Notes: generated by a model not told the origin, from the letters alone. 64,000 nt of DNA from Polymorphobacter sp. (GCF_025362435.1 NZ_JANYGL010000105.1:17467-81466); one strand, 5' to 3'. Positions 14,257 through 43,598 are shown, counted from the first letter of the stretch. Translations and numbers: made by a program.

Positions 14257-14901
14257 CTACTTCGTCGCGTCGGGCTGGCGTTCGGGCCGTGACGCCGCGA
14301 CCGCAGGAAGCGCGTTCAGGCGGACGTCGATCGCCGACAGCTTCGGGAAGCGGGCGATGTCGGCCTGGAGCCGCCGCGCGTTCCACATCTGCGGGACGAG
14401 GCAGATATCGGCGAGCGTCACCGTATCACCAAACAGGTACGTTCCCGTCGCGGCCTCGGCGATCTCCTCGAGCGCCTCGAAGCCGACCTCGATCCAGTGG
14501 CGGTACCACGTGTCGACGGCGTCCTGTGGCTGCGCGAGCGGCCCGCGCAGGTAGTTGAGCACACGGAGATTGTTGACCGGATGGATGTCGCAGGCGATCT
14601 GCTGCGCGATGCCGCGGACGCGGGCGCGACCAAGCGGGTCCTGCGGCAGCAACGGCGGCTCGGGATAGACCTCGTCGAGATATTCGACGATCGCGAGGCT
14701 TTGGTTGATCCCGGCATCGCCGTCGATTAGGTACGGCACCATCCCCTGCGGGTTGAGCAGCTTGAAGCCGATCCCCGACTGCGCCCCCTTCGCGAGGTTG
14801 ATAGGCACCTGTTCATAGGCAATCCCCTTGATCGCCAGCGCGATGCGGACGCGGTACGACGCCGACGAGCGCCAATAGCCATAGAGGGTGCGGGTGGTCA
14901 T
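14257..14901 (-). CDS. maiA: Maleylacetoacetate isomerase (zeta-class GST)
   Basis: Glutathione-dependent isomerase converting maleylacetoacetate to fumarylacetoacetate in tyrosine/homogentisate breakdown. The N-terminal thioredoxin-like domain shows the zeta-class signature SSASYRVRIALA with its catalytic Ser/Ser/Cys-type motif (here SSA). The C-terminal all-helical domain carries CDIHPVNNLRVLNYL, conserved in MaiA. The 214 residues fit. No homogentisate dioxygenase is nearby; the fumarylacetoacetase at 34.8 kb belongs to a different cluster, so a link between them is only conceivable. Confidence 0.88.
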   Translation of the reverse strand: MTTRTLYGYWRSSASYRVRIALAIKGIAYEQVPINLAKGAQSGIGFKLLNPQGMVPYLIDGDAGINQSLAIVEYLDEVYPEPPLLPQDPLGRARVRGIAQQIACDIHPVNNLRVLNYLRGPLAQPQDAVDTWYRHWIEVGFEALEEIAEAATGTYLFGDTVTLADICLVPQMWNARRLQADIARFPKLSAIDVRLNALPAVAASRPERQPDATK

Positions 14902-28121: not shown

Positions 28122-28967
28122 CTAGGCCCCGTACCGCCGCACCACCTGCCGCTGCGCGCCGAGCCCGTCGATGCCGAGGGTGATGACGTCGCCCTCGGTC
28201 AGCCAGCGCTGCGGCTTCTTGCCCATGCCGACGCCGGGAGGGGTGCCGGTGCTGATGATGTCGCCCGGCTGGAGGCTCATGAAGCGGCTGACGTAGCTGA
28301 TGATGAACGGCACGTCGAAGATCAGTTCGGCGGTGCTGCCGGTCTGCATCCGCTCGCCGTTGACGTCGAGCCACAGCCCGAGCGCGTTCAAGTCGCCCGC
28401 CTCGTCGAGGGTGACGAGGTACGGTCCGAACGGCCCGAAGGTGTCGCAGCCCTTGCCCTTGTCCCACGTCCCGCCGCGCTCGAGCTGGTACTCACGCTCG
28501 GACAAGTCGTTGACGATGCAGACCCCGGCGACGTGGTCGAGCGCGTCCTCGACCGCGACGTAGCGCGCCTCCCGGCCGATGACGACGGCGAGCTCGACCT
28601 CCCAATCGGCCTTGGCCGACCCCGGCGGCAGGACGACATCGTCGTTCGGGCCGATGATCGCCGAGGTCGCCTTGGTGAAGATGATCGGCTCGGCGGGGAC
28701 CGCCTGCCCCGATTCGGCAGCGTGGTCGCGGTAGTTGAGCCCGATGCAGATGAACTTGCCGACCCGCGCGACGGGCTCGGCGAGGCGCACCCCGGCATCG
28801 ACGCGCGGCAGGCTGGTGACGTCGACCGCCGCGATCGCCGACAGCCCATTCGCCAGCGTGCCCGGGTCGATGTCGCCGATCACCCCGGCGAGGCAGCGGA
28901 TGCCGCCACCGGCGTCGAGCATACCCGGCCGCTCCTGCCCCTTCGGTCCGTACCGCAATAATCTCAT
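28122..28967 (-). CDS. Fumarylacetoacetate hydrolase family protein
   Basis: Metal-dependent hydrolase/isomerase/decarboxylase fold of 281 residues. KFICIGLNYRDHAAESGQ, PIIFTKATSAIIGPND and DWEVELAVVIGREARYV carry the acidic metal ligands. The C-terminal GDIISTGTPPGVGMG is the family hallmark. This short FAA subgroup includes ureidoglycolate lyase, acylpyruvases and 2-keto-3-deoxy-sugar-acid hydrolases, and the exact substrate cannot be told from sequence. It is a single gene divergent from glcDEF, with a palindromic repeat in the shared upstream region. Confidence 0.87.
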   Translation of the reverse strand: MRLLRYGPKGQERPGMLDAGGGIRCLAGVIGDIDPGTLANGLSAIAAVDVTSLPRVDAGVRLAEPVARVGKFICIGLNYRDHAAESGQAVPAEPIIFTKATSAIIGPNDDVVLPPGSAKADWEVELAVVIGREARYVAVEDALDHVAGVCIVNDLSEREYQLERGGTWDKGKGCDTFGPFGPYLVTLDEAGDLNALGLWLDVNGERMQTGSTAELIFDVPFIISYVSRFMSLQPGDIISTGTPPGVGMGKKPQRWLTEGDVITLGIDGLGAQRQVVRRYGA

Positions 28968-29338
28968 CGGGCTTCCTTGGGATTAGAGCACAAAGATTTC
29001 GGCTAATCGTCGTCGCGAAACACACATCGAGCACACAGCCGTCATCCCCGCGAACGCGGGGACCCATCTCCCGAGTTCAGGAGATGGGTCCCCGCTTTCG
29101 CGGGGATGACGACCTAGATAAGGGCATATCGCCCCCGGCGGAGCCGAGCGGGTAACGCCGTCCGGCAAGTATAAGATACAGCGACGCCATCGCAACCGCG
29201 GCCGCGCTGGTGGCGATGCGGCCCGACGACCGTCCGCGTCGTTCGTGCCATTGTCCGCTCGCCGCCAACTGCATACACATCAGCGACGGCAGCGACCCCC
29301 GCCTCCTGCCGCACCGCCACCGGAGCCCCCCCGACGCG
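28968..29338. other. Divergent intergenic region between the FAA hydrolase and glcD
   Basis: A region of 371 bases contains the full palindromic repeat at 29041-29110 and must hold the promoters of both flanking genes. The track ORFs inside it are repeat translations or frame shadows. No RNA gene or regulator gene is evident. Confidence 0.5.
29041..29110. repeat. Full-length dispersed palindromic repeat (best copy)
   Basis: This 70-base element has two 31-base arms matching at all but one position (GTCATCCCCGCGAACGCGGG... against its mirror). They meet at the nine-base loop CGAGTTCAG. Each arm itself contains the small palindrome CCCCGCGAACGCGGGG, so the RNA could fold as a cruciform. Confidence 0.9.
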
Positions 29339-30820
29339 ATGAAGATGCCGTGCCCCGACGACGCCGTGATCGCCGACCGCGTCGCGCTGGTTCGCGGCCT
29401 GCGCAGCGTCAGCGACGCGGTGATCGACGACCCCGCCGAACTCGCCGCCTACGCCAGCGACGGCCTGACCGCATACAGCCAGCTCCCCCTCGCGGTCGTC
29501 CTGCCGCGGACCACCGCCGACGTCGCCGCGATCCTAACCTATTGCCACGCTGCGGGAATCAAGGTCGTGCCGCGCGGGTCGGGCACGTCGCTGTCGGGGG
29601 GAGCGCTGCCGCTCGCCGACGGCATCGTCCTCGGTCTCGGGCGGTTCAACCGCATCCTCGACATCGACCTCGCCAACCGCTGCGCCGTCGTCCAGCCGGG
29701 GGTGACCAACCTCGCGATCAGCCACGCGGTCGCGGGCGACGGCTTCTACTACGCCCCCGACCCGTCGAGCCAGATCGCCTGCTCGATCGGCGGCAACGTC
29801 GCCGAGAACGCCGGCGGGGTGCATTGCCTCAAGTACGGGATGACGAGCAACAACCTGCTCGGCGTCGAGCTCGTCCTGATCACCGGCGAGATCGTGCGGC
29901 TCGGCGGCAAGGCGCTCGACGGCGCCGGCTACGACCTGCTCGGCATCGTCTGCGGATCGGAGGGGCTGCTCGGCGTCGTCACCGAGGTCACCGTCCGCAT
30001 CCTGCCGAAGCCCGAATGCCAGCGCGCGCTGCTGCTCGGCTTCCCGACGATGGTCGCGGCGGCCGAATGCGTCGCCGCGATCATCGGCGACGGCATCATC
30101 CCGGCGGCGATCGAGATCATGGACCGCCCGGCGATCCACGCCGCCGAGGCCTTCGTCCACGCCGGCTACCCGCTCGACGTCGAGGCGCTGATGATCGTCG
30201 AGGTCGACGGCACCCCCGCCGAGGTCGATCATTTGATCGCGGTGGTCGACGCGCTCGCACTGGTCAACGGCGCGACGACGATCCAGGCGTCGACGAGCGA
30301 CATCGAACGCACATTGTTCTGGGCGGGGCGCAAGGCCGCCTTCCCTGCGGTCGGGCGGATCGCATCGGACTATTATTGCGTCGACGGGACGATCCCGCGC
30401 CGCACCCTGCCCGCGGTGCTGACCGAGATCACCGCGATCGCCGCCGCGCGCGGGCTGTCGGTGGCGAACGTCTTCCACGCCGGCGACGGCAACCTCCACC
30501 CGCTGATCCTGTACGACGGCGACGTCCCCGGGCAGCTCGAAGCCGCCGAGGCGGTCGGCGCGGCGATCCTCGAGGAATGCGTCCGCGTCGGTGGTGTCCT
30601 CACCGGCGAGCACGGCGTCGGCGTCGAGAAGCGCGACCTCATGCTCCGCCAGTTCACCGCGGTCGACCTCGCCCAGCAGACCGCGATCAAATGCGCGTTC
30701 GACGCGCAGAATCTCCTCAACCCGGGCAAGGTCTTCCCCGAGCTGTGCCGCTGCGCCGAGATGGGCCGCGTCCACGTCCATCGCGGGGCGACGCGCTTCC
30801 CCGAGCTGCCGCGCTTTTGA
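29339..30820 (+). CDS. glcD: Glycolate oxidase FAD-linked subunit
   Basis: Flavin subunit of membrane-associated glycolate dehydrogenase, oxidising glycolate to glyoxylate. The FAD-binding PCMH domain shows VVPRGSGTSLSGGALPL and SSQIACSIGGNVAENAGG. The FAD-oxidase C-terminal domain has NVFHAGDGNLHPLILYD and LTGEHGVGVEKRD. ATG 29339 (MKMPCPDDAVIADR) gives 493 residues, matching GlcD; the track start at 29210 adds an unrelated leader. First gene of glcDEF, with glcE starting 13 bases after its stop. Confidence 0.94.
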   Translation: MKMPCPDDAVIADRVALVRGLRSVSDAVIDDPAELAAYASDGLTAYSQLPLAVVLPRTTADVAAILTYCHAAGIKVVPRGSGTSLSGGALPLADGIVLGLGRFNRILDIDLANRCAVVQPGVTNLAISHAVAGDGFYYAPDPSSQIACSIGGNVAENAGGVHCLKYGMTSNNLLGVELVLITGEIVRLGGKALDGAGYDLLGIVCGSEGLLGVVTEVTVRILPKPECQRALLLGFPTMVAAAECVAAIIGDGIIPAAIEIMDRPAIHAAEAFVHAGYPLDVEALMIVEVDGTPAEVDHLIAVVDALALVNGATTIQASTSDIERTLFWAGRKAAFPAVGRIASDYYCVDGTIPRRTLPAVLTEITAIAAARGLSVANVFHAGDGNLHPLILYDGDVPGQLEAAEAVGAAILEECVRVGGVLTGEHGVGVEKRDLMLRQFTAVDLAQQTAIKCAFDAQNLLNPGKVFPELCRCAEMGRVHVHRGATRFPELPRF

Positions 30821-30833
30821 CGATGGCGCGCAC

Positions 30834-32036
30834 GTGACAACCATCCGCGCCGACACCGCCGCCGCCGTCGCCGACGCCGTTCGCGAAGCATATGACGCCG
30901 GGCGGACCCTCGAAGTCGTCGGCAGCGGCAGCCGCCGGGGCTATGGCCGCCCGGTCGACGCCGACACGGTCCTCGACGTCTCCGGCCTGAGCGGCATCGT
31001 CGACTATGATCCGGCCGAACTCGTCCTGACCGCCCGCCCCGGAACGAGCATCGCCGAAATCACCGCGCTGGTTGCCGGAAGCGGCCAGCACCTCGCCTTC
31101 GATCCCCCCGACCTCGCGCCGCTGTGGGGCGGCGCTCCCGGAGCCGGGACCCTCGGCGGCCTGCTCGCCCTCGGCCTCGGCGGCTCGCGCCGGGTGTCGG
31201 CGGGAGCACCCCGCGACCATTTCCTCGGCTTCGCGGCGGTCAACGGGCGGGGTGAAAACTTTTCCGCCGGCGGCAAGGTGATCAAGAACGTCACCGGCTA
31301 CGACCTGCCGAAACTGCTCGCCGGATCGCTCGGGACGCTCGCCGTCCTAACCGAGGTGACGATCAAGGTCCTCCCCGCGCCGCGCGCCGGGACGACATTG
31401 ACGTGGTTCGGGCTCGACGACCGCGCGGCGATCGCGGCGATGACCCGCGCACTCAACAGCCCGATGGTGCTTCAAGCGGCTGCTCACGCTCCCGCTGCGA
31501 TCAGTCGATGTGCGGGCGAGGTGCGGGCGGCGACACGGCTCCATCTGGCGGGAGTTCCGGTCGCTGTCGCCGCAAATGCCGCTAATTTGACCGATCTGTT
31601 GGCGGATTTCGGCCAGCCCGAGGCGAATGACGACAATAACGCCATCTGGCACGATATCGGCAGCGTCGAGCCCTTCACCAAAGGGGGCGAAATCGTCTCG
31701 CGGGTCGTCCTGCCCCCCTCGACCGCCGCCGCCTTCACCGCCGCACTCGACCCGGCGAGCGACGCACGCTGGCTCTACGATTGGGGCGGCGGGCTCGTCT
31801 GGGTGATCCTGCCCGATGCCGAAGACGGCCATGCCGCCATGGTCCGAGCGGCCCTCGCAATGACCGCCGGAGCCGATGGCCACGCAACCCTCGTCCGCGC
31901 CCCCGACGCCGTCCGCCGCGCGGTCGCGCCGTTCCAGCCACTCGCACCCGCGCTCGCCGCATTGTCCGATCGCGTCCGCCAGCGCTTCGATCCGGGTGGC
32001 GTGCTCAACCCCGGGCGGATATGGGCAAGGCATTGA
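30834..32036 (+). CDS. glcE: Glycolate oxidase subunit GlcE
   Basis: Second flavoprotein-like subunit of glycolate dehydrogenase, with an FAD-binding PCMH fold similar to GlcD's N-terminal half. VVGSGSRRGYGRPV and FPPAGGKVIKNVTGYDLPKLL-type sequence (GGKVIKNVTGYDLPKL) are hallmark GlcE segments. The start is GTG 30834 (MTTIRADTAAAV), giving 400 residues; the longer track ORF runs through glcD in another frame. Its stop lies one base before the glcF ATG. Confidence 0.92.
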   Translation: MTTIRADTAAAVADAVREAYDAGRTLEVVGSGSRRGYGRPVDADTVLDVSGLSGIVDYDPAELVLTARPGTSIAEITALVAGSGQHLAFDPPDLAPLWGGAPGAGTLGGLLALGLGGSRRVSAGAPRDHFLGFAAVNGRGENFSAGGKVIKNVTGYDLPKLLAGSLGTLAVLTEVTIKVLPAPRAGTTLTWFGLDDRAAIAAMTRALNSPMVLQAAAHAPAAISRCAGEVRAATRLHLAGVPVAVAANAANLTDLLADFGQPEANDDNNAIWHDIGSVEPFTKGGEIVSRVVLPPSTAAAFTAALDPASDARWLYDWGGGLVWVILPDAEDGHAAMVRAALAMTAGADGHATLVRAPDAVRRAVAPFQPLAPALAALSDRVRQRFDPGGVLNPGRIWARH

Positions 32037-32037
32037 G

Positions 32038-33288
32038 ATGACGACGCAAACCGAAGCCCGCGAGGCGACCGGCATCATCCGCAAATGCGTCCACTGCGGC
32101 TTCTGCACGGCGACCTGCCCGACCTATCTCCTCCTCGGCGACGAGCTCGACAGCCCGCGCGGGCGGATCGTCCTGATCAAGGACATGCTCGCGTCGGACG
32201 CGCCCCCTGCCCCGTCGACGGTCAAGCACATCGACCGCTGCCTGAGCTGCCTCAGCTGCGCGACGACCTGCCCGTCGGGGGTCGACTACATGCACCTGAT
32301 CGACCATGCCCGCGAGCATATCGAGGCGACCTACTGCCGCCCGCCGGGTGAGCGCCTGCTTCGCTCGCTCCTCGCTAACGTCTTGAGCAGGCGCGGGATT
32401 TTCCGCTTCGCGACGGCGCTCTCCCGGCTGACCCGCCCCATCGCCGGCGTCCTCCCAAAGCAACTCCGCGCGATGGCAGCGGCTGCCCCTGCCCGTCCCG
32501 CACCTCGCGGCGTCGCCGACCGGCCCGGCTTTTTCCCGGCAACCGGTCCGCGCGTCGCCCGCGTCGCGATGCTGTCGGGGTGCGTCCAGCCGGTCCTCGC
32601 CCCGTCGATCGACGACGCCGCAGTGCGCCTGCTAATCCGCCACGGCGTCGAAGTCGTCATCGCCCGCACCGGCTGCTGCGGCGCGCTGTCCCACCACATT
32701 GGCAAGTCGGACGACGCGCGCCGCCTCGCTAAGGCCAACATCCTTGCGTGGGAACTGGAGATCGCCAAGGGCCTCGACGCGATCGTCGTGACGACCTCCG
32801 GGTGCGGCACGACGATCAAGGATTACGGGCACTTGTTCGCCGCCGACCCCGAGTGGCAGTCGCGCGCCGCGCGCGTCGCGACGCTGGCGAAGGACATCAC
32901 CGAAGTCATGGCGACGGTCGGATTACACTCGCCGGTGATCGCCCCGGGCACCGCAGTCGCCTATCATTCGGCGTGTTCGATGCAGCATGGTCAACAGGTT
33001 ACGGCGCAACCACGCGACCTGCTCGCAGCAGCAGGGTTCGCGGTCCGCGAGATCGCCGAGGGGCATATCTGCTGCGGCTCGGCGGGAACCTACAGCATCC
33101 TCCAGCCCGAACTCGCGACCGGGCTGCGCGACCGCAAGCTCGCGGCGATCGACCGGACCGGGGCCGCCATCGTCGCCACCGGCAACATCGGCTGCATCAG
33201 CCACCTCGCGTCCGGCGGCGCGACGATGATCCACACCGTCGAACTGCTCGACTGGGCGACGGGCGGCCCGCGCCCCGCCGGGGTCTGA
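32038..33288 (+). CDS. glcF: Glycolate oxidase iron-sulfur subunit
   Basis: Electron-transfer subunit linking the flavin subunits to the respiratory quinone pool. Two [4Fe-4S] ferredoxin motifs are seen at the N-terminus: CVHCGFCTATCP and CLSCLSCATTCP. Two CCG domains follow (RTGCCGALSHHIG and EGHICCGSAGTYSIL), typical of GlcF and heterodisulfide-reductase-like proteins. ATG 32038 gives 416 residues; the track's 31876 start lies inside glcE. Last gene of the operon, convergent with the next gene six bases away. Confidence 0.94.
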   Translation: MTTQTEAREATGIIRKCVHCGFCTATCPTYLLLGDELDSPRGRIVLIKDMLASDAPPAPSTVKHIDRCLSCLSCATTCPSGVDYMHLIDHAREHIEATYCRPPGERLLRSLLANVLSRRGIFRFATALSRLTRPIAGVLPKQLRAMAAAAPARPAPRGVADRPGFFPATGPRVARVAMLSGCVQPVLAPSIDDAAVRLLIRHGVEVVIARTGCCGALSHHIGKSDDARRLAKANILAWELEIAKGLDAIVVTTSGCGTTIKDYGHLFAADPEWQSRAARVATLAKDITEVMATVGLHSPVIAPGTAVAYHSACSMQHGQQVTAQPRDLLAAAGFAVREIAEGHICCGSAGTYSILQPELATGLRDRKLAAIDRTGAAIVATGNIGCISHLASGGATMIHTVELLDWATGGPRPAGV

Positions 33289-34860: not shown

Positions 34861-35832
34861 TCAGGAAGCTGCGGATTTTCTCGCTACGACCTGGTCGATC
34901 GCCCCGAATGGGGTCGATCCGTCGTCCATCGCGGCCTGCATCCGCACCCTGTCGCCGAATTTCATGAAGCCGGTCGTCTGCTTGCCGTCGGCGATCATCT
35001 CGATCGCGCGGCGTTCGGAGATGCAGCTCGACCCGACCTCGGCATAGCCGCGATTGGCGACGGTGCCCGAGCCGATGATGGTGCCGGCGACGAGATCGCG
35101 CGTTCCCGCCGCATGCGCGACGAGGTCGTGGAAGCCGTAATCCATCTCGCGGCCGTTCGCCCGGCCGAAGGGCTTGCCGTTCCACTCGATCGTCAGGTCG
35201 AGCCCGACACGGCCGTCGCGCCAATATTCACCGAGCGCGTCGGGGGTCACCGCGAATGGGGCCATCGAGCATGCCGGCTTGGCCTGGACCCAGCCGAAGC
35301 CGGTCCGCATCTCGGGCACCGCCAGCGCGCGCAACGACCAGTCGTTGATCTGGACGATCAGCTTGATGTGCGCCAGTGCGTCGGCGGCGGAGGTGCCCAT
35401 CGGCACCGCGTCGACGACGACGCCGAACTCGCCCTCGAAGTCGATGCCGTTCGCCTCGTCGATGAACGGCACCGGGTCGGTCGGGCCATAAAAACGGTCC
35501 GACATTCCCTGGTACATCAACGGCTTGTCGGTCACGATCGGCGCGGTTCCGAAGGCGACTTCCATCAAGCTGCCGTGCGTCGAGAACGCAGAGCCGTCGA
35601 GCCATTGCCACGACCGCGGCAGCGGCGCGCGGACGGTGCCCGGAGCCAGCGGCTCGCCCTCGGCGTCGGCACGGGCGGCGAGCGCGCGCAATTCGGGCTC
35701 GGCGCGGGTCCAGTCCGCAATCGCGGCGAGCAGGTTCGGCCAGCGCGTGCCGAACAGCGCCCGCGTGCCGTCGCCACTGACGACCCCGAGCTCACCGTCG
35801 GGCGTGCCGTTATTCCGCGTTACCAGTCTCAC
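34861..35832 (-). CDS. Fumarylacetoacetase-like hydrolase (homogentisate-pathway type)
   Basis: Hydrolase of 323 residues similar to the 330-residue bacterial fumarylacetoacetases. Landmarks are SWQWLDGSAFSTHGSLMEVA, KPLMYQGMSDRFYGP, GIDFEGEFGVVVDAVPMG with acidic metal ligands, VQINDWSLRAL, AGTIIGSGTVANRG and AEVGSSCISERRAIE. It should cleave a C-C bond in a beta-diketo acid. The start is taken as GTG 35832 (MRLVTRNNGTPDGELGVVS) because the track's extension to 35913 overlaps the cupin gene. It is the last gene of the aromatic-catabolism run, 26 bases after the cupin, and probably processes a late acyclic intermediate. Confidence 0.88.
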   Translation of the reverse strand: MRLVTRNNGTPDGELGVVSGDGTRALFGTRWPNLLAAIADWTRAEPELRALAARADAEGEPLAPGTVRAPLPRSWQWLDGSAFSTHGSLMEVAFGTAPIVTDKPLMYQGMSDRFYGPTDPVPFIDEANGIDFEGEFGVVVDAVPMGTSAADALAHIKLIVQINDWSLRALAVPEMRTGFGWVQAKPACSMAPFAVTPDALGEYWRDGRVGLDLTIEWNGKPFGRANGREMDYGFHDLVAHAAGTRDLVAGTIIGSGTVANRGYAEVGSSCISERRAIEMIADGKQTTGFMKFGDRVRMQAAMDDGSTPFGAIDQVVARKSAAS

Positions 35833-35858
35833 GCTGCGTATTCCTTGTCTCGAACGGC

Positions 35859-36422
35859 TCAGGCTAGCCCGTCGGTATAGGCGCCGTCGATCAGGATGAA
35901 GGCGATCCGGCAATTGCGTCCCGACCGGTTGGCCCAGCCGTGGTTGGTGCCACGCTGGACGACGATGTCACCGGCGCGGACCACGGTCTCGCCGTCGTCG
36001 ACGATCAGCACCAGCTCGCCCTCGAGGACGATGCCATAGTCGACCGTCTGCGTCCGGTGCATCATCGCATGGCGCGATCCCGACGCATGCGACGATGCCG
36101 CGCCGGCCCCGACCTCGGCGAAATGCGCCGCCGCCTCCTCGGGCGTCAGCGTCGCCATCCGCGCGTCTTCGGGCGGGATGTCGAGGACGCGGATGCGCGT
36201 GCCGTTCTGCGGCGGGGCGAGCTTGATGCCGTCCTCGGCCGGCTCGCCCGAAGCACGGTCGATCTGCGCCGGGGTCTCGCGCGTGTTCCACACCTCGTAG
36301 AACATCGGCCCGATGTCGCCGCCGATGCGCTGGACGCGCGGCGGCGGGCCATCCTCCTGGATGATCGCGTTGCCCTGCGCGTCATGGCCGGTGACGATGC
36401 GGCGGAAAGGGGCTGTCGGCAT
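35859..36422 (-). CDS. Cupin-domain protein of unknown activity
   Basis: A protein of 187 residues with an N-terminal ~100-residue part (FRRIVTGHDAQGNAIIQEDG...) and a C-terminal single cupin. Cupin motif 1 is altered to HRTQTVDYGIVLEGEL. Motif 2, GDIVVQRGTNHGWANR, keeps the His and Asn. Relatives recur next to aromatic-degradation and polyketide genes, but their reaction is not established to my knowledge; a dioxygenase, isomerase or decarboxylase role is possible. It is encoded between the small membrane protein and the fumarylacetoacetase. Confidence 0.8.
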   Translation of the reverse strand: MPTAPFRRIVTGHDAQGNAIIQEDGPPPRVQRIGGDIGPMFYEVWNTRETPAQIDRASGEPAEDGIKLAPPQNGTRIRVLDIPPEDARMATLTPEEAAAHFAEVGAGAASSHASGSRHAMMHRTQTVDYGIVLEGELVLIVDDGETVVRAGDIVVQRGTNHGWANRSGRNCRIAFILIDGAYTDGLA

Positions 36423-36438
36423 TGCTCGCTCCTGTGGA

Positions 36439-36921
36439 TCAGCGGGACGGGATCAGCGGTGAAGTGCCGTGCAACGCGGCGCGGACGCCGATCGGCGTGA
36501 CGATCGCGGCGAGCGCGGCACCGTAGGCGATCTTGATCGCGGCACCGGCGAGCCATGTCACCGTCGCGAAACCGCCGGCTGCAGCAACTGCGCCGCCGAT
36601 GGCCGCACCAACGGCGGCAGCGATTGCCGCCATCAGCAGCGCGCGCAAGACCAGCGACCGCGGCAGCAGCGACCGGCCCGACAGCGGCGCGATCAGCCCC
36701 GCGGCGAGGCGGCGGCGCGTCAGGAAGCCGGGGACGAGGACCGACATCAAGGTGATCGCGAACGACTGCGGGATGAAATCGAAGCCGAGGCCGCCGGTCC
36801 ACGCCAGCGCGACGTCGTGCATCGGCGGGAAGAAGGCGACGTAGAACAACAGGCTGAGCACCGAATTGATCGCGATGCTCAGCCGCGTCTCGCGCCGCAG
36901 ATAGTCGGCCAGCGAGGTCAC
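36439..36921 (-). CDS. Small membrane protein in the aromatic cluster
   Basis: Predicted integral membrane protein of 160 residues with about four spans: AINSVLSLLFYVAFF, FAITLMSVLVPGFL, VLRALLMAAIAAAVGAAIGGAV and an Ala/Gly-rich last span. The N-terminus MTSLADYLRRETRLSIAINS is conserved-looking, and its ATG overlaps the hydrolase stop by four bases (ATGA), so it is translationally coupled. No transporter family is recognised. It could aid uptake, anchor an enzyme, or handle a toxic intermediate; all are inference. Confidence 0.75.
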   Translation of the reverse strand: MTSLADYLRRETRLSIAINSVLSLLFYVAFFPPMHDVALAWTGGLGFDFIPQSFAITLMSVLVPGFLTRRRLAAGLIAPLSGRSLLPRSLVLRALLMAAIAAAVGAAIGGAVAAAGGFATVTWLAGAAIKIAYGAALAAIVTPIGVRAALHGTSPLIPSR

Positions 36922-38072
36922 CCGACGCGGCCGAGGGTGTCGGCGAACCAGTCGGCGATATAATCGCGGCCGAACGCCATGTTGTCCGCCCCGACGTGCT
37001 CGACCCCGCCCTCACGCTCGGTGAAGATGCGGAGTTCGCGGCGGCGGCTGTTGACCAACTGGTCGAAGCTCTGGTGGGCGTAGTCGACCGAGATCTGGCG
37101 GTCCTTCGCGCCGTGGGTGACGAGGAACGGCACCTCGATCCGCGACATGTGGCCGTCGAGTCCCATCTCGGCGGACTTGGCGAGGAAGTCGTCCATGTCG
37201 CTCGCGCCGAACGCCCAGAAGACGTGCGCCCAGTAATGCGGGATCGGGTTCTCGCCTTCCTTGCGGATGCGCTTGTCCTGGACCTCGCGCCAATTGTGGT
37301 TGGCGCCCCACACCGCGCCCGAGGCGAAGCGCGGTTCATAGGCGACCGCGCGCGGGGCGAAGTGCCCGCCGAGGCTGATCCCGGTCATGCCGATCCGTGT
37401 CGCATCGACGTCGGCCCGCGCTTCGAGCCAGTCGACCGCCTTCGATGCCCAGCTCTCGCTGTGCGGATCGACCGGCAGACCTTGGAGGCGCAGAGCCTCG
37501 CCCGAACCGGGCTGGTCGACACACAAGGTCGAGATGCCGCGGCGGGCGAGCGCCTCGGGCAGCCCCGACCAGTAGAGCAGTTCCTTGCAGCTATCGAGGC
37601 CGTTGCAATAGACCACCGTCGGCTTCGGCCCGTCGCCGGGCGCACGGGTGAACAGCGCCGGCATCGTCCCCGACGCGAGCGAAATCTCGACGCGCTCGCG
37701 GCCCATCTTGCCGAGCACGGTCGACCTTTCGAAGGTCGCCAGTGCGCGGGCGTAGATCGCGGCGCGGCCCGGCGAGCCGTGCCCCTGCATGCGTTCGGCG
37801 ACGAACAAATAAAGCGCGGCGCGTTCGAGCTTGTTCGACGCGGAGATGCCGCGGCCGAGCTGCTCATCCTCGTCGGCAAGCCCGGTCAGGCGGTCGGCCA
37901 TCTCGACCCAGCGCGCCATGAACTGCGGCGTGCCGGCGTCGCCCCCTGCCGCCGCGGCGTCGCGGATCGGCTGGCACATGTCGATGATCTCGCCGATGCG
38001 CCCGCCGCTTTCGAGGGCGATCGCGACCGACAGGTTCCAGATATAATTGGGGAAGTATTCGAACAATGACAT
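36918..38072 (-). CDS. Alpha/beta-hydrolase, 2,6-dihydroxypseudooxynicotine hydrolase-like C-C hydrolase
   Basis: A protein of 384 residues starting at ATG 38072 (MSLFEYFPNYIWNLSVAIALE). A helical N-terminal lid domain of ~150 residues precedes the hydrolase core: GDGPKPTVVYCNGLDSCKE (oxyanion region), nucleophile elbow GMTGISLGGHFAPR, acid in THGAKDRQIS and histidine in GGVEHVGADN. This architecture is that of 2,6-dihydroxypseudooxynicotine hydrolase and FrsA-like proteins, which break a C-C bond next to a ketone. It begins four bases after the dioxygenase stop and overlaps the membrane-protein gene. It may act on the ring-cleavage product or deacylate an aromatic ketone before cleavage. Confidence 0.85.
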   Translation of the reverse strand: MSLFEYFPNYIWNLSVAIALESGGRIGEIIDMCQPIRDAAAAGGDAGTPQFMARWVEMADRLTGLADEDEQLGRGISASNKLERAALYLFVAERMQGHGSPGRAAIYARALATFERSTVLGKMGRERVEISLASGTMPALFTRAPGDGPKPTVVYCNGLDSCKELLYWSGLPEALARRGISTLCVDQPGSGEALRLQGLPVDPHSESWASKAVDWLEARADVDATRIGMTGISLGGHFAPRAVAYEPRFASGAVWGANHNWREVQDKRIRKEGENPIPHYWAHVFWAFGASDMDDFLAKSAEMGLDGHMSRIEVPFLVTHGAKDRQISVDYAHQSFDQLVNSRRRELRIFTEREGGVEHVGADNMAFGRDYIADWFADTLGRVG

Positions 38073-38076
38073 CGCG

Positions 38077-38979
38077 TCAGACGTCCGACGGCTGGAACAG
38101 GCACGGATCGGGATGCGGCTTGGGCATCGTTTGCGGGCCGCCGACACCGGTACCCCACTGGTCCATGACGTGCGGGCCGGGCTCGTAGACGCGGTGCTCG
38201 TGGGTGTCGAAATCGACCTCCTCGAGCTCGGAGGTGTATTCTACCGCGAACCCGTTCGGCGTCGTGAAATAGCTGAAGGTGTTGTTCCCCGCGGTGTGGC
38301 GCCCTGGCCCCCACAGCAGGTCGGTCCCCATCTTCCGCAGCCGGCTCGCGCCGCGCATCATGTCGTCGGCGCTGAGCATGTCGAAGGCGACGTGGTTCAA
38401 GTGCGGCGGTCCGGGGAGCAATGCGAGGCGGTGGTGCGCTGTGTTGCAGCGCAGGAAGACCATGAACTCGCCGAGCCAGTCCGAGACGCGGAAGCCGAGG
38501 ACGTCGGTGAAGAACGCCGCCATCGCCACGTTGTCGGGCGAGTGGAGGACGATGTGGCTGATCTTGACCGGCATCCCCTCCCACTTCGCCATCGTCCGGG
38601 CGTCGCCGCGGCCGACGTCGCTCGAAATCTCGAACGGCAGCCCGTCGGGGGAGAAGAAGCGGAAGCCGTAGCCGCCGCCCGGCGCGTCAAGGTCGCGCGG
38701 GGCGTGGATCATCTTGCAGCCCGCCGCGATGACCTTGTCGTGGAGCGCGTCGACGTCGGTGCGGGCGTCGGCGGCGAGCGCGATCACCTCGATGTGGTTG
38801 ACCGCCGACTTGCGCAGCCGGACGACGTGGTGCTCGGCCGAGCCGTGGGTCTTGAACCACGCCATGTCGTCGGTCGCTGCGACTTCGACGAGGCCCCAGC
38901 TGTCGGCGTAGAATTTGCGCTCGGCGTCGAAGTCCTCGACCCCGTAGCCGACGTAACGAATATCGGTGACACGGCTCAT
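38077..38979 (-). CDS. Type I extradiol ring-cleavage dioxygenase (VOC superfamily)
   Basis: A protein of 300 residues with two vicinal-oxygen-chelate modules. The N-terminal module begins VTDIRYVGYGVEDFD. The C-terminal module holds the Fe(II) facial triad: His in ISHIVLHSPDN, His in LNHVAFDML and Glu in FAVEYTSELE. This matches 2,3-dihydroxybiphenyl/catechol 2,3-dioxygenase-like enzymes that open catechol rings between a hydroxylated and an adjacent carbon. It follows the FAD hydroxylase by 13 bases and precedes the C-C hydrolase by four, the order expected for sequential reactions. Confidence 0.9.
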   Translation of the reverse strand: MSRVTDIRYVGYGVEDFDAERKFYADSWGLVEVAATDDMAWFKTHGSAEHHVVRLRKSAVNHIEVIALAADARTDVDALHDKVIAAGCKMIHAPRDLDAPGGGYGFRFFSPDGLPFEISSDVGRGDARTMAKWEGMPVKISHIVLHSPDNVAMAAFFTDVLGFRVSDWLGEFMVFLRCNTAHHRLALLPGPPHLNHVAFDMLSADDMMRGASRLRKMGTDLLWGPGRHTAGNNTFSYFTTPNGFAVEYTSELEEVDFDTHEHRVYEPGPHVMDQWGTGVGGPQTMPKPHPDPCLFQPSDV

Positions 38980-38992
38980 CGTCGGTCCTTTC

Positions 38993-40108
38993 TCAGATCG
39001 GTTGCGCGGTGCGCTTGAACATTTCCGCAGTGGCGACGGCGTTGTCGACCGGCGGTCCGAAGCCGAGCTGGCCGCGGCAGATCGCCAGCGACGCGTCGAC
39101 GATGTACTGGCAGCGGTCGTAGCGGCGGTCGTGGTACGCGGTGAAGGCGGCTTCGGGGGTGTCGTGCCGACCGATCTCGTCGGCGAGGACGAGCGAGTCC
39201 TCGATCGCCATTCCCGCGCCCTGCCCGAGATGCGGTGTCGTCGCGTGGACGGCGTCGCCGAGCAGGACGACCCGCCCCTTGTGCCACGGTCCGATCACGA
39301 GGATCGTCTCGAGCGGGCGGTAGACGACGCTGTCATCATCGACGATCGAGTCGGCAAGCGCGCGGATATCGGGCGCATGGCCGTCGAGTTTAGCGCGCAT
39401 TGCTGCCGCTAGTCCCTCGCGGGGATAGCGTGGATTGCCGGGCTCGGGCGTCGTCACATAGACGTACATCAGGCTTTCGCTGATCGGCACGAGTCCGGCG
39501 CCGATCCGTCCGTTATAGACGTGGAGCGCGTCGAGCCCCTCCGGCCGTGGCACATTGTACCGCCACACCGCCTGCCCGGTGAACTCGGGCTCGGGGGCGT
39601 CGGGCAGGAGGTGCTTGCGCGTTTCGGAATACAGCCCGTCGGCGCCGATCACGATGTCGAAGCGCTCGCTGCTGCCGTTGGCGAAGGTGACATTGACTCC
39701 CGCGCCGTCGTCGTCGAGCGACGTGACGCTGACGCCGAGCCGAACGTCGGCCCCCGCCGCCTTGGTCCGGCTGCCGAGGACTGCGTGGAGTGCCTTGCGG
39801 CTGATCCCGAGGTTGGCCGGATAGCGCTCGACGAGGCGCGGCGACGGCACCTGGGCGACGAGCATCCCGTTGGGAGCGTGGACCGCGACCTTGTCGAAGC
39901 CGACCCCGGCGGCGAGATAGTCGTCGATCACCCCGAGATCGGTCATCGCGCGGATGACGTTGCCCTGCTGGATGATGCCGACGCCGTAAACCGACCATGT
40001 CGGATCGCGCTCGATCACCGTGACGCGGTGCCCAGCGGCTCGGAGGGCGATCGCCGCGGTCAGCCCGCCGATGCCGCCGCCGATGATCAGGATCGACTGG
40101 TCTTTCAA
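38993..40108 (-). CDS. FAD-dependent aromatic hydroxylase (PHBH fold)
   Basis: Class A flavoprotein monooxygenase of 371 residues. The Rossmann motif is GGGIGGLTAAIALRAAGH with the ribose-binding acid in VIERD, the DG motif is GADGLYSETRKHLL, and the GD motif is LLGDAVHATTPHLGQGAGMA. Such enzymes hydroxylate phenols, benzoates or pyridines using NAD(P)H and oxygen. The start is TTG 40108, with AGGAG seven bases upstream; the track extension to 40474 lies in the receptor gene. It should create the vicinal diol for the next enzyme. Closest named types would be salicylate, 3-hydroxybenzoate or 6-hydroxynicotinate hydroxylases. Confidence 0.9.
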   Translation of the reverse strand: MKDQSILIIGGGIGGLTAAIALRAAGHRVTVIERDPTWSVYGVGIIQQGNVIRAMTDLGVIDDYLAAGVGFDKVAVHAPNGMLVAQVPSPRLVERYPANLGISRKALHAVLGSRTKAAGADVRLGVSVTSLDDDGAGVNVTFANGSSERFDIVIGADGLYSETRKHLLPDAPEPEFTGQAVWRYNVPRPEGLDALHVYNGRIGAGLVPISESLMYVYVTTPEPGNPRYPREGLAAAMRAKLDGHAPDIRALADSIVDDDSVVYRPLETILVIGPWHKGRVVLLGDAVHATTPHLGQGAGMAIEDSLVLADEIGRHDTPEAAFTAYHDRRYDRCQYIVDASLAICRGQLGFGPPVDNAVATAEMFKRTAQPI

Positions 40109-40152
40109 GATCCCGCTCCTTCGCTCGTTGTCCGAACCCGCATCGTCACCCC

Positions 40153-42582
40153 TTAGAAGGTATAGCCGGCGCGGACGCCGAAGGTCCGCGGTGCCGAGGT
40201 CGTCGCCACCAGCGCACTGGCGACACTGACGGTCGGGGTGTTGACGATGATCCGGTCGTTCTCGAGGTTGCGGATGAACCCCGTCACCTGCCAATGCCCG
40301 CCATCGGGGCCGAAGCCGAGCTGGAGGTTGGTCGTCCACGTGCCGTGGACCAGTTCCTCGGGGAGGAACTCGGCCTCGACGTAGCGCTTCGAACGATAAT
40401 GCGTGTCGACGCTGCCGACGACCTTGTACCCGCCGACGCGAACCGTCTGCTGCGCCGCGACTGTGAGCGTCCACTTTGGCGCGTTGAACGCCGGGAAGCC
40501 CGAGCAGTTGATCGTATAGACCCCGGTGTTGAGCGTCGTCGGGCAGCCGGTCAGCGGCGGCGTTGCTTGTGCGGGCTGGTTGTAGCTGAAGCTCTTGTAC
40601 TTGGTGTCGAGGTACTGGACCTCGCCGGTCAGCAGTGTGTCGGGGAGCGGCAGATACTCGATATTGCCCTCGGCGCCCTTGATCGTCGACTGGCCGATGT
40701 TCTGACTGAACTGCCCCTGGTTGCCGTTGGCATCGACCCCGATCCGCCCGATCTGCTGGTCTTTATAATCCCACCAGAACGCTTCGACGTTGAGCTGGAG
40801 CTTGTTGTCGAAGAAGCGGTTCTTCACCCCGACGGTGTAGGCGGTGATGAATTCCGGCTTGTACGTCTCGTAGCCGGCGGCGAGCGAGAAGCCGCCCGAG
40901 CGGTAGCCGCGCTCGACGCTGGCATAGCCGAGCGACCGCGGCGCGATATCGAACTCCGCCGCGCCGCGCCACGTCACCTGGCTCGACGGCAGCGTCGCGT
41001 CGACGATCGTCGCGACGCGGCTGAGGATCGCGCCGGACGTGCCGATCGGACGCGCCTGCCCCGCGGGCGGGACGATGAACGGCGGCTGGAGCGCGTTATA
41101 GTTGCTGCCGACCGGGAGCAGCGGCGTCGTCGGGCAGCTCGGCACGCCGAACGCGTTGCGCTGGGTACAGACGACGACGAAGACATCGGCCCGGCCGTCG
41201 AAATCCTTATGATCGTCGGTATAGCGGACCCCGCCGATCAGCCGGAAGCGATCGGTGACGTTGGCCACGACGCGCCCAAACACCGCCCAGCTTTTTGTGC
41301 TCGAATTGAAGAACTGATAGGCGTTGAGCGCCTGCTGCGCGAAGGTATAGTTGCCGTTGACCTTCTCGTTGAAATAATATCCGCCGACGACATAGTCGAA
41401 AGGGCCGATGCGCTTGCCGTTGAAGCGCGCCTCGAGGCTGTACTGCTCGTCCTTTTCGCGGATCAGGCCGACGAACGCGGCGGCACCGAAGTTGTAGTTG
41501 AGATCGGCCTTGCGATAGGCCGGAATGACGGTCAGCGTGCCAGCCCCGGTATCCCAGTTCAGCTCGCCGTTGACCCCGTAGAACTTGTTGTCGAGGTAAA
41601 CATTGCTGTCGAGCGACGCGGCGGTGCGGCCCGAAACACCTAGAAACAGCGACTGCCGGTAGGCCTGCGCGCGCGGGTCGTACAGCCCGACCTGTGCACC
41701 GAGCCCCGACGGCACGAAGCCATACGCCCCGGTCTGGAAATTGAGCGCATAGGCACCGTCATACGACGAGCCGACGCCCTTGCCGCCGCTGTGGGAATAG
41801 TCGGCGGCGACACGGAGTTTGAGTTCTGACGACGGCTCGACGAGGAGCTGGATGCGCCCCGCCTGCGTCTTCTCGTCGGAGGTTCCATCGGTCAGGTAGC
41901 CGTCGCGCGAGACGACGTTGCCCGACACGCGGACGGCGGCGATGCTGCCGATCGGCAGGTTGACCGCGCCCTGGACGTTGACCGCGTTGTAATTGCCGTA
42001 ACTGGCGTCGACGAAGCCCGAGACATCGCCGAGCTTAGGCCGCGCCGGGAGGATGTTGATCGCGCCCGCGGTGGCGTTGCGTCCGTACAGCGTGCCCTGC
42101 GGCCCCTTGAGGACTTCGAGGCGCTCGAGGTCATAGAACAGGCCCGAGGTTGACGTCGGGCGGCCGAGATAGACGCCGTCGTAGTTGACCGCGATCGCCG
42201 GGTCGGAATAGCCGTTGACGGTGAAGTTGCCGACGCCGCGAAGGAAGAAGGTCTTGTTGGCGCCGCCCGCGTCCTGGGCCTGGAGCGACGGGACGATCCG
42301 GTTGAGGTCGGACGGCTGAGTGATCCCCTGCGCCAGAACTTGGGTGCCTGATACGACGTCGATCGCGACACCGGCGCGCTGCGAGGATTCGACCCGGCGC
42401 TGCGCGGTAATGACGATGTCGGTAAGGCCCTGGCTTTCGCCGCCGCCCTGAGACGGAGCCGCCGTAGTGGGGGCCGCCTGCGCGGGGGCCGGTGCCGGTG
42501 CGGGTGTCTCGGCGACCTGCGCGAGCGCCGGACAGCTGATCGACAGCGTCAGCGCAGTTCCAGCCAGCAATAGACGCCGCAT
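40153..42582 (-). CDS. TonB-dependent outer-membrane receptor
   Basis: Outer-membrane gated channel of 809 residues. A signal peptide (MRRLLLAGTALTLSISCPALA) is followed by a Pro/Ala-rich linker, the TonB-box-like region DIVITAQRR, a plug domain (AGVAIDVVSGTQVLAQGITQPSDLNRIVPSLQ, LERLEVLKGPQGTLYGRN) and a 22-strand-type barrel ending in the terminal aromatic YTF. ATG 42582 follows GGGAGA at good distance. In sphingomonads this receptor style often serves uptake of aromatic or other carbon compounds, not only siderophores. It heads the catabolic run, divergent from the LysR gene. Confidence 0.93.
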   Translation of the reverse strand: MRRLLLAGTALTLSISCPALAQVAETPAPAPAPAQAAPTTAAPSQGGGESQGLTDIVITAQRRVESSQRAGVAIDVVSGTQVLAQGITQPSDLNRIVPSLQAQDAGGANKTFFLRGVGNFTVNGYSDPAIAVNYDGVYLGRPTSTSGLFYDLERLEVLKGPQGTLYGRNATAGAINILPARPKLGDVSGFVDASYGNYNAVNVQGAVNLPIGSIAAVRVSGNVVSRDGYLTDGTSDEKTQAGRIQLLVEPSSELKLRVAADYSHSGGKGVGSSYDGAYALNFQTGAYGFVPSGLGAQVGLYDPRAQAYRQSLFLGVSGRTAASLDSNVYLDNKFYGVNGELNWDTGAGTLTVIPAYRKADLNYNFGAAAFVGLIREKDEQYSLEARFNGKRIGPFDYVVGGYYFNEKVNGNYTFAQQALNAYQFFNSSTKSWAVFGRVVANVTDRFRLIGGVRYTDDHKDFDGRADVFVVVCTQRNAFGVPSCPTTPLLPVGSNYNALQPPFIVPPAGQARPIGTSGAILSRVATIVDATLPSSQVTWRGAAEFDIAPRSLGYASVERGYRSGGFSLAAGYETYKPEFITAYTVGVKNRFFDNKLQLNVEAFWWDYKDQQIGRIGVDANGNQGQFSQNIGQSTIKGAEGNIEYLPLPDTLLTGEVQYLDTKYKSFSYNQPAQATPPLTGCPTTLNTGVYTINCSGFPAFNAPKWTLTVAAQQTVRVGGYKVVGSVDTHYRSKRYVEAEFLPEELVHGTWTTNLQLGFGPDGGHWQVTGFIRNLENDRIIVNTPTVSVASALVATTSAPRTFGVRAGYTF

Positions 42583-42639
42583 CGATAGTCTCCCCAAAGC
42601 GCATGGCCTCTTCCGGGCCCGGCAGCGAAGTCGCAGACG

Positions 42640-42695
42640 CTTGCCTATTCGTCGAGTTTATAGTTTTAATCGTTGACCACAAATTGGATTGATGG
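42640..42695. promoter_or_regulatory. Divergent promoter/operator region between the receptor and LysR genes
   Basis: An AT-rich patch (GAGTTTATAGTTTTAATCG) stands out in the 113-base gap between the TonB receptor and the LysR gene. LysR proteins typically bind such divergent regions and respond to a pathway intermediate. No exact T-N11-A operator is claimed. Confidence 0.4.
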
Positions 42696-43598
42696 ATGCG
42701 CCTCGATCGCTTCGACCTCAACCTGCTGGTTGCGTTCCATCTTCTGATGGAGGAGCGCAGCGTCACCGCTGCCGCACGCCGCCTCAACGTCACGCAATCG
42801 GCGATGAGCGCCTCACTCAAGCGGCTGCGGGATGCTTTCCAGGACGAGATTCTGGTCATGCACAGTAAGACGATGGTGCCGACGCCGCGCGCGCTGACCC
42901 TCGCCCCCGAGGTCGAGCGTGCCATCGTCATGCTGCGAGGCCTGATCTCGTCGACGGCGCAATTCGATCCGGCGACGTCGGATCGCTCGTTCCGCATTGC
43001 CGCGTCGGACTATATCACGACGGTGCTCGTCGTACCGCTGTGCCGCGACCTTGTCCGCGAGGCGCCGTCGATCCGCTTCGACATCTCGCTGCCGACCGAG
43101 GAGACGTCGCACCGGCTAGCGAAGGGCGAGTTCGATCTCGCCCTGACGCCGCACGAGTTCGTCGATCCCCAGCACCCGACCGAATTGTTGCTCGAGGAGA
43201 GCCACGTCGTCGTCGGCTGGGACGCCAACCCGCTACTCGGCGGCCCGCTGACGCTCGAACAGTTCGTCGCCGCCGGGCACGTCGCGGTGCAGATCGTCGG
43301 GCGCAATACCTTCATCGAGAACGTGCTGGCGCAGCAGGGCATCGTCCGCCGTATCGAGGTCGTCGCGCCGTCGTTCATCCAGGTGCCGTGGCTGTTACCG
43401 GGGACGATGCGGCTGGCGCTGATGCACGGGCGGCTGGCGCGGTTGATGGCGCCCGAACTGTCGCTCAAGGTCGTGCCCTGCCCGTTCGAGGTGCCGCGGA
43501 TGCGCGAGGTCATGCAGTATCACTCAACCCGCGCGCGCGACGAGGGGCTGCTGTGGCTGCGCGCCAAGCTGCGGGCGATGGCCGATCGCACGCCTTGA
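42696..43598 (+). CDS. LysR-family transcriptional regulator
   Basis: A protein of 300 residues with an N-terminal winged helix (RFDLNLLVAFHLLMEERSVTAAARRLNVTQSAMSASLKRLR) and a C-terminal inducer-binding domain. The opening sequence resembles the NodD/NahR/LinR-type LysR subgroup, many of which respond to aromatic compounds. It is transcribed away from the catabolic genes, the standard arrangement for a local activator. It converges with guaA 26 bases away. Confidence 0.92.
   Translation: MRLDRFDLNLLVAFHLLMEERSVTAAARRLNVTQSAMSASLKRLRDAFQDEILVMHSKTMVPTPRALTLAPEVERAIVMLRGLISSTAQFDPATSDRSFRIAASDYITTVLVVPLCRDLVREAPSIRFDISLPTEETSHRLAKGEFDLALTPHEFVDPQHPTELLLEESHVVVGWDANPLLGGPLTLEQFVAAGHVAVQIVGRNTFIENVLAQQGIVRRIEVVAPSFIQVPWLLPGTMRLALMHGRLARLMAPELSLKVVPCPFEVPRMREVMQYHSTRARDEGLLWLRAKLRAMADRTP

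Follow-up and report, generated by a model that had tools for sequence, protein, structure and literature searches.

Which compound is broken down by an operon that combines a flavin adenine dinucleotide (FAD) mono-oxygenase, an extradiol ring-cleavage dioxygenase, two C-C hydrolases and a cupin? The question is raised by a locus of Polymorphobacter sp. at positions 34861-43598 of a 64,000-nucleotide stretch of DNA (GCF_025362435.1, NZ_JANYGL010000105.1:17467-81466), referred to here as the window. A preliminary description had taken the combination to be an unrecognised one and the pathway to be undescribed; we arrive at a different view, as the layout is that of the fde and ifc systems for flavonoid A-ring catabolism (PMC11069340, PMC8552027, PMC11303751). 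The cluster is likely to be a self-contained operon that takes up a plant flavonoid aglycone and opens its A-ring by meta-cleavage, with a 5,7-dihydroxyflavone (apigenin or luteolin) as the best candidate. The gene set would very probably be the sphingomonad version of the Herbaspirillum pathway for naringenin and the Variovorax pathway for soy isoflavones.

Flavonoids are prominent among root exudates and act as signals between plants and microbes. In the literature that we searched, aerobic bacterial catabolism of the A-ring is described for Herbaspirillum and Variovorax only, and no paper on sphingomonad flavonoid gene clusters was found. The fde operon for naringenin degradation in Herbaspirillum seropedicae SmR1 was reportedly described by Marin and colleagues in 2013 and 2016. 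In Herbaspirillum, C8 hydroxylation of naringenin by FdeE and its Rieske partner FdeD precedes cleavage of the A-ring (PMC8552027), and FdeE can act on flavanones, flavones, isoflavones, and flavonols (PMC11303751). The LysR activator FdeR, encoded divergently to the operon, responds to flavonoids and has been described as NodD-like (PMC10799723). In Variovorax, the FAD enzyme IfcA produces 8-hydroxydaidzein, which accumulates when the dioxygenase gene ifcB is deleted; IfcD cupins consume 2-hydroxy-5-(4-hydroxyphenyl)-4H-pyran-4-one; the cluster also encodes a DHPON-hydrolase-like enzyme; and the intermediate termed X3 has the formula C11H8O4 (PMC11069340).

Our comparisons with these systems use four clusters chosen by layout to stand in for the Fde and Ifc sequences themselves. 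The plasmid cluster of Burkholderia anthina (L050) starts with a divergent LysR gene, a Phenol_MetA_deg porin (as FdeA), a hydrolase, an EthD protein, a dioxygenase, and a Rieske protein, and continues with an FAD enzyme, a major facilitator superfamily (MFS) transporter, a cyclase, a cupin, a fumarylacetoacetate hydrolase (FAH) superfamily protein, and an epimerase; this gene order reproduces the fde labels. Clusters from Diaphorobacter (L010) and Massilia (L011) resemble it. The fourth, on a soybean symbiont plasmid (L013), looks ifc-like because its dioxygenase and FAD enzyme are 61% and 32% identical to those of L050, close to the published values for IfcB/FdeC (65.8%) and IfcA/FdeE (36.3%) (PMC11069340).

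Gene set and conservation

All eight open reading frames (ORFs) are present and intact, and the arrangement reported earlier holds: seven genes lie tightly spaced on the minus strand (34861-42597), opposite a LysR gene on the plus strand (42696-43598). From the receptor gene onward, the gaps between the seven are 44, 13, 1, -4, 16, and 26 bp, and such short distances (-4 to 44 bp) on one strand are consistent with a single transcript. Assignments with Pfam and NCBIfam, along with the solved relatives 2jbw, 3b59, and 3lzk, uphold the enzyme families named in the preliminary description, so that an FAD mono-oxygenase, a type I extradiol dioxygenase, a C-C hydrolase, and a cupin do stand together in one operon.

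The cluster recurs in related bacteria. Among 301 sampled genomes of the order, 29, including the window's own, contain a relative of the dioxygenase (E<1e-60), which is single-copy in the host genome; the hydroxylase-dioxygenase-hydrolase core is found in about 10% of the sampled genomes. We assembled 39 loci in which the dioxygenase is at least 60% identical, three of which come from a strain or species that had already contributed one. Within 10 kb of the dioxygenase, these loci carry the C-C hydrolase in 37 cases, the hydroxylase and the FAH gene in 35 each, and the LysR gene in 28. The closest relative (L052) keeps the full order FAH-cupin-membrane protein-hydrolase-dioxygenase-hydroxylase-receptor opposite LysR, at 64-86% identity. 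Because the dioxygenase occurs in 29 of 301 genomes, the core genes are co-located across the 39 loci, and the order in L052 is complete, the gene set is a genuine, patchily distributed unit and not a chance neighbourhood.

We excluded one family (L007 and L076-L078) as a cluster type paralogous to this one, on the grounds of its 51% identical dioxygenase and the lack of an adjoining C-C hydrolase. This second type, at 9514-14009 of L007, includes a TonB receptor, the dioxygenase, an FAD hydroxylase, and FAH and amidohydrolase genes, with no DHPON-like hydrolase adjoining. A mosaic locus on plasmid pNL2 of N. aromaticivorans (L012, 1-17300) combines FdeC-like dioxygenases (29-33%), an FAD enzyme, a DHPON-like hydrolase (45%), an FAH gene (65%), and cupin, epimerase, histidinol-dehydrogenase-like, and sulfatase genes.

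Relatives and residues of the encoded proteins

The group A FAD mono-oxygenase (38993-40108, minus strand; PF01494, FAD_binding_3) scores 469 bits against the NCBIfam PRK06847 subfamily. Judged from homologue length and reading frame, its start is more likely the TTG codon that gives a 371-residue protein, matching the length of homologues. It shares 38-42% identity with the hydroxylases of the fde-like clusters (38-41% for L050 and L010, with L050 at 38%) and 36% with the counterpart in L013, the ifc-like cluster.

The type I extradiol dioxygenase (38077-38979, minus strand; PF00903, Glyoxalase/dioxygenase) matches 3b59 at 490 bits, with other type I extradiol enzymes also among its solved relatives. 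Alignment with BphC (1han) places the metal ligands at H142, H196, and E247, a conserved 2-His-1-Glu triad, and the second-sphere positions HH (182/183), GRH (228), and Y237 are kept as well. The C-C hydrolase encoded next (36918-38075, minus strand; alpha/beta hydrolase, FrsA-like, in Pfam) has DHPON hydrolase (2jbw) as its best solved relative, at 63 bits over 207 residues. Residues S234, D325, and H360 are conserved across 42 homologues, and the protein is 55-56% identical to the hydrolases of L050 (55%), L010, and L011.

The FAH-superfamily C-C hydrolase (34861-35832, minus strand; PF01557 and PF18288, FAA_hydrolase and FAA_hydro_N_2) more likely starts at a GTG codon, giving 323 residues by the same reasoning; the longer ORF reaching 35913 is an unlikely form. 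Its best solved relative is 3lzk (252 bits), residues E136, E138, and D167 (326-residue numbering) are at least 95% conserved in 44 homologues, and it is 52-55% identical to the FAH proteins of L010 and L050 (55% for the latter). The earlier label of a homogentisate-type fumarylacetoacetase stands at the level of the superfamily (PF01557) and fails at that of the equivalog: the score against the fum_ac_acetase model is 30 bits, far below the cut-off of 375, and we reject a fumarylacetoacetase of the homogentisate route.

The cupin (35859-36422, minus strand; PF07883, Cupin_2) is 46-49% identical to the cupins of L050 (46%) and L010 and 42% identical to that of L013. Across 37 loci, the cupin occurs alone in 16 and a cyclase-family gene (PF04199) alone in 14, while five have both and two have neither (Fisher p=2e-4); where both occur, the cupin is divergent (35-55% identity). 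In L005 (Novosphingobium pentaromativorans US6-1), for example, a cyclase stands where the window has its cupin. Our hypothesis is that the two replace one another at a single step, most likely the hydrolytic opening of a pyranone; L050 and L010 carry both genes, which leaves this equivalence hypothetical.

Two further genes would serve transport. The TonB-dependent outer-membrane receptor (40153-42597, minus strand; PF00593 and PF07715, receptor and plug) occupies the equivalent place in L052, L005, L008 (Sphingomonas sp. R1), and L044. The 160-residue small membrane protein (36439-36921, minus strand) had no match in Pfam or NCBIfam; homologues fill the same slot in L052, L005, L006, L044, and L071-L073, and since MFS genes hold that place in other clusters, it possibly takes part in inner-membrane transport.

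Elsewhere in the window, a further FAH-superfamily gene (28122-28967), about 6 kb from the operon, is near 2,4-didehydro-3-deoxy-L-rhamnonate hydrolase (404 bits, cut-off 500), and beside it lie ORFs resembling a GlcD/GlcE/GlcF glycolate or lactate oxidase set (29210-33288). A maleylacetoacetate isomerase gene, maiA, scores above its cut-off at 14257-14901, with no fumarylacetoacetase noticed alongside. On its other side the operon adjoins guaA, near the rpoA/rplQ ribosomal-protein region (43625-63992), an odd housekeeping setting for a patchy catabolic cluster.

Flavonoid associations, proposed route and rivals

The window has a divergent NodD/FdeR-like LysR regulator (42696-43598, plus strand; LysR helix-turn-helix and substrate domains). 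Its best plasmid relatives outside the sphingomonads are rhizobial proteins at 36-40% identity, the top one annotated NodD2. The window's regulator shares 40% identity with S. terangae NodD2, 39% with the L050 LysR, and 32% with the product of a LysR gene adjoining a ring-hydroxylating dioxygenase (L085), and the cluster LysRs form one supported clade. The protein is presumed to be a flavonoid-responsive activator, with the caveat that NodD-likeness by itself is insufficient proof of a flavonoid ligand. In the 150 bases before the LysR gene, 12 of 32 loci have the nod-box half-site pattern ATC-N9-GAT, where 2.2 would be expected, and 10 have a TTTTGTTTT block, for which the expectation is 0.3; an ad hoc pattern, YCA-N12-GAT, was not enriched there (1 observed, 3.2 expected). 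Scans for sigma-70 promoters and terminators gave no informative site; the putative promoter/operator region lies between the receptor and LysR genes (42598-42695).

C-Glycosyl flavones are the commonest plant C-glycosides. The beta subunit of C-glycoside deglycosidase (CGD; PF19906) is encoded in 12 of the 301 genomes, every one of which belongs to the 29 with the dioxygenase (hypergeometric p=5.6e-14, an optimistic value since the genomes are related). At 11 of 37 loci, roughly 10.5 kb or less separates the gene from the cluster, and a soil enzyme from a pathway of this sort acts on C6- and C8-glycosylated flavonoids (PMC12724307). If the B-ring leaves as 4-hydroxybenzoate or protocatechuate, pobA and ligB are to be expected; one or both adjoin the cluster in 6 of 37 loci, L052 has both past the FAH end, and the host genome encodes them at 67% and 79% identity. 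Three independent signs, the PF19906 association, the NodD-like LysR, and the pobA/ligB neighbours, thus point to flavonoids. CGD alpha (TIM barrel) and beta genes were seen beside flavonoid-type ring-cleavage clusters in L004, L014, L045, L046, L048, L057, L061, L066-L069, and L071, one case being on a Deinococcus plasmid; these sets often include GMC oxidase and Gfo/Idh dehydrogenase genes.

Onto the observed gene set, conservation, catalytic residues, and genomic associations, a route can be laid in which C8 hydroxylation, the extradiol step, and cupin action on a pyranone are proposed by analogy with published relatives, while the hydrolase and FAH chemistry and the flavone substrate are what we infer. 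The LysR regulator would sense the flavonoid and switch on the operon, and the receptor would take up the aglycone or glycoside. The FAD enzyme would hydroxylate C8 to give a 7,8-diol (for apigenin, C15H10O5 to isoscutellarein, C15H10O6), and the dioxygenase would cut C8-C8a with addition of O2 (C15H10O8), C8a with its ring oxygen turning into a lactone carbonyl, which would give a 3-acyl-4-hydroxy-2-pyranone bearing an acylpyruvate side chain. The DHPON-like hydrolase would split C4a-C5 with water to C11H8O4 and a C4 acid (oxaloacetate, C4H4O5, if C5 bears a hydroxyl); DHPON hydrolase performs this kind of reaction, in which an electron-rich hydroxylated ring loses an acyl group. By the same logic, daidzein, which has no 5-hydroxyl, would give C11H8O4 and C4H4O4, and the two cuts together thus predict a formula equal to that of X3. 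The cupin would open the aryl-hydroxypyranone to 5-aryl-3,5-dioxopentanoate (C11H10O5 in the case of apigenin), which shares the pattern R-CO-CH2-CO-CH2-COOH with fumarylacetoacetate, and the FAH enzyme would yield an aryl carboxylate and acetoacetate. The B-ring would exit as 4-hydroxybenzoate or protocatechuate via PobA and LigAB encoded elsewhere in the genome. Checked by hand, the formulae balance. Given this pyranone-opening and FAH chemistry, no hydratase or aldolase would be needed and the FAH enzyme would come last. The absence of those two enzymes, pointed out in the preliminary description, would thereby be explained. The order suggested there (uptake, hydroxylation, extradiol opening, C-C hydrolysis, cupin step, second C-C hydrolysis) is in line with ifc/fde enzymology and the conserved gene order.

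Several points weigh against a flavonoid pathway of this kind. The dioxygenase is merely 25-28% identical to those of L050 (25%), L010, L011, and L013, which are 55-75% identical among themselves, and for this reason the ring-opening position and substrate could differ from those of fde and ifc. The enzyme would work as FdeC and IfcB do but sit on another branch of the type I extradiol enzymes; the comparison, made with stand-ins rather than FdeC or IfcB, did not place it as an ortholog within the fde/ifc branch, and the same substitution bears on the other comparisons of the window's proteins with Fde and Ifc. The operon has no Rieske ORF, and the L050 Rieske protein has no match in window positions 25001-52000. 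Neither exact ATC-N9-GAT nor the block enriched elsewhere was found in the window's own divergent region. The host genome was found to contain neither the CGD beta gene nor a GH106 rhamnosidase; two GH3 genes were found, and the growth substrates of the organism may be aglycones or simple O-glucosides. Finally, deletion of the alpha/beta hydrolase in Variovorax did not stop the loss of daidzein (PMC11069340). Without a 5-hydroxyl, however, the C4a-C5 cut would be a retro-aldol reaction and not a diketone hydrolysis, which may explain that mutant. With slightly more doubt than belief, we also entertain a separately assembled sphingomonad route for flavones, often C-glycosyl flavones, with a dioxygenase from another branch, no need of a Rieske partner, interchangeable cupin and cyclase at the pyranone-opening step, and a ring opening or intermediates that may differ from those of fde and ifc.

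The distance of the dioxygenase would also suit the same chemistry on another fused or acylated plant phenolic, such as a xanthone (norathyriol from mangiferin), chromone, dihydrochalcone, or acylphloroglucinol. Such compounds, too, could be degraded by hydroxylation, ring opening that yields an acyl-pyranone or polyketone, and a pair of C-C hydrolyses, and because C-glycoside deglycosylation also acts on mangiferin and carminic acid, the PF19906 link is not specific to flavones. We nevertheless regard such a substrate as distinctly improbable in view of the NodD-like regulator, the pobA/ligB neighbours, which fit a 4-hydroxyphenyl B-ring, and the clear homology of the hydrolase, cupin, and FAH protein to those of fde-like clusters. 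Those 55-56% identical hydrolases, set against 63 bits to 2jbw, also make a hydroxypyridine or nicotine-type pathway extremely unlikely, although 2jbw is the best solved relative of the hydrolase: there is no sign of pyridine-ring enzymes in the operon, and such a pathway is at odds with the NodD-like regulator and the C-glycosidase neighbours. We rejected the nicotine/hydroxypyridine route on this sequence distance and non-nicotine context.

Within the flavonoids, an isoflavone or flavanone pathway, with the same operon type and a different C-ring, overlaps with the pathway proposed here. The core enzymes alone cannot tell C-rings apart, and Sphingopyxis appears in a published list of taxa that have IfcA homologues (PMC11069340). 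A NAD-dependent epimerase/dehydratase accompanies the fde-like clusters and 8 of 37 sphingomonad loci, but neither the host genome nor its nearest relative has it, whereas five other genomes, serving as positive controls, do; it is also missing from all 11 C-glycoside-linked clusters (p=0.08). We propose that this enzyme oxidises the benzylic alcohol left by flavanones only, in which case its absence points to flavones. Together with the hydroxylase being only 36% identical to that of L013, this makes an isoflavone or flavanone substrate rather unlikely, and apigenin or luteolin the preferred one.

Comparison with known systems

As far as the literature searched shows, the pathway type is already known, and no description was found of the sphingomonad version, its dioxygenase branch, the C-glycoside linkage, or the exact substrate. 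A function is thereby proposed for a conserved operon annotated merely as VOC protein, alpha/beta hydrolase, cupin, and FAH, the operon is linked to C-glycoside deglycosylation machinery, and concrete intermediates are put forward for steps that the ifc work left open, namely the enzyme making X3 and the final C-C bond cleavage.

Classical catechol or homoprotocatechuate meta-cleavage shares with the window a type I extradiol dioxygenase; in place of its semialdehyde dehydrogenase, hydratase, and aldolase, the window has two C-C hydrolases and a cupin. The link to the soil systems CarABC and PurABC is through CGD alpha and beta genes, in many cases accompanied by a GMC oxidase gene, which adjoin the homologous clusters of other sphingomonads as well as a related one in Deinococcus aetherius. 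Genes of this type are absent from the window's genome, and they supply the aglycone rather than open the ring.

The ifc cluster of Variovorax sp. V35 (Aoki et al. 2024, PMC11069340) has, like the window, an FAD hydroxylase, an extradiol dioxygenase, a DHPON-hydrolase-like enzyme, and a cupin; its hydroxylase acts at C8 and its cupin on an aryl-hydroxypyranone. It differs in being much bigger, with two redundant cupins, a hydroxylase specific for isoflavone aglycones, and a dioxygenase of the FdeC kind. The fde operon of H. seropedicae SmR1 has the Rieske partner FdeD and FdeA, and L050 and L010 add an MFS transporter, a cyclase, and an epimerase, whereas the window has a TonB receptor in place of the FdeA-type porin and also a small membrane protein, and its dioxygenase shares only about 25% identity. 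Common to fde and the window are a divergent NodD-like LysR gene and an FAD hydroxylase and extradiol dioxygenase within one operon, and the fde-like L050 and L010 further share the hydrolase, cupin, and FAH protein at 46-56% identity.

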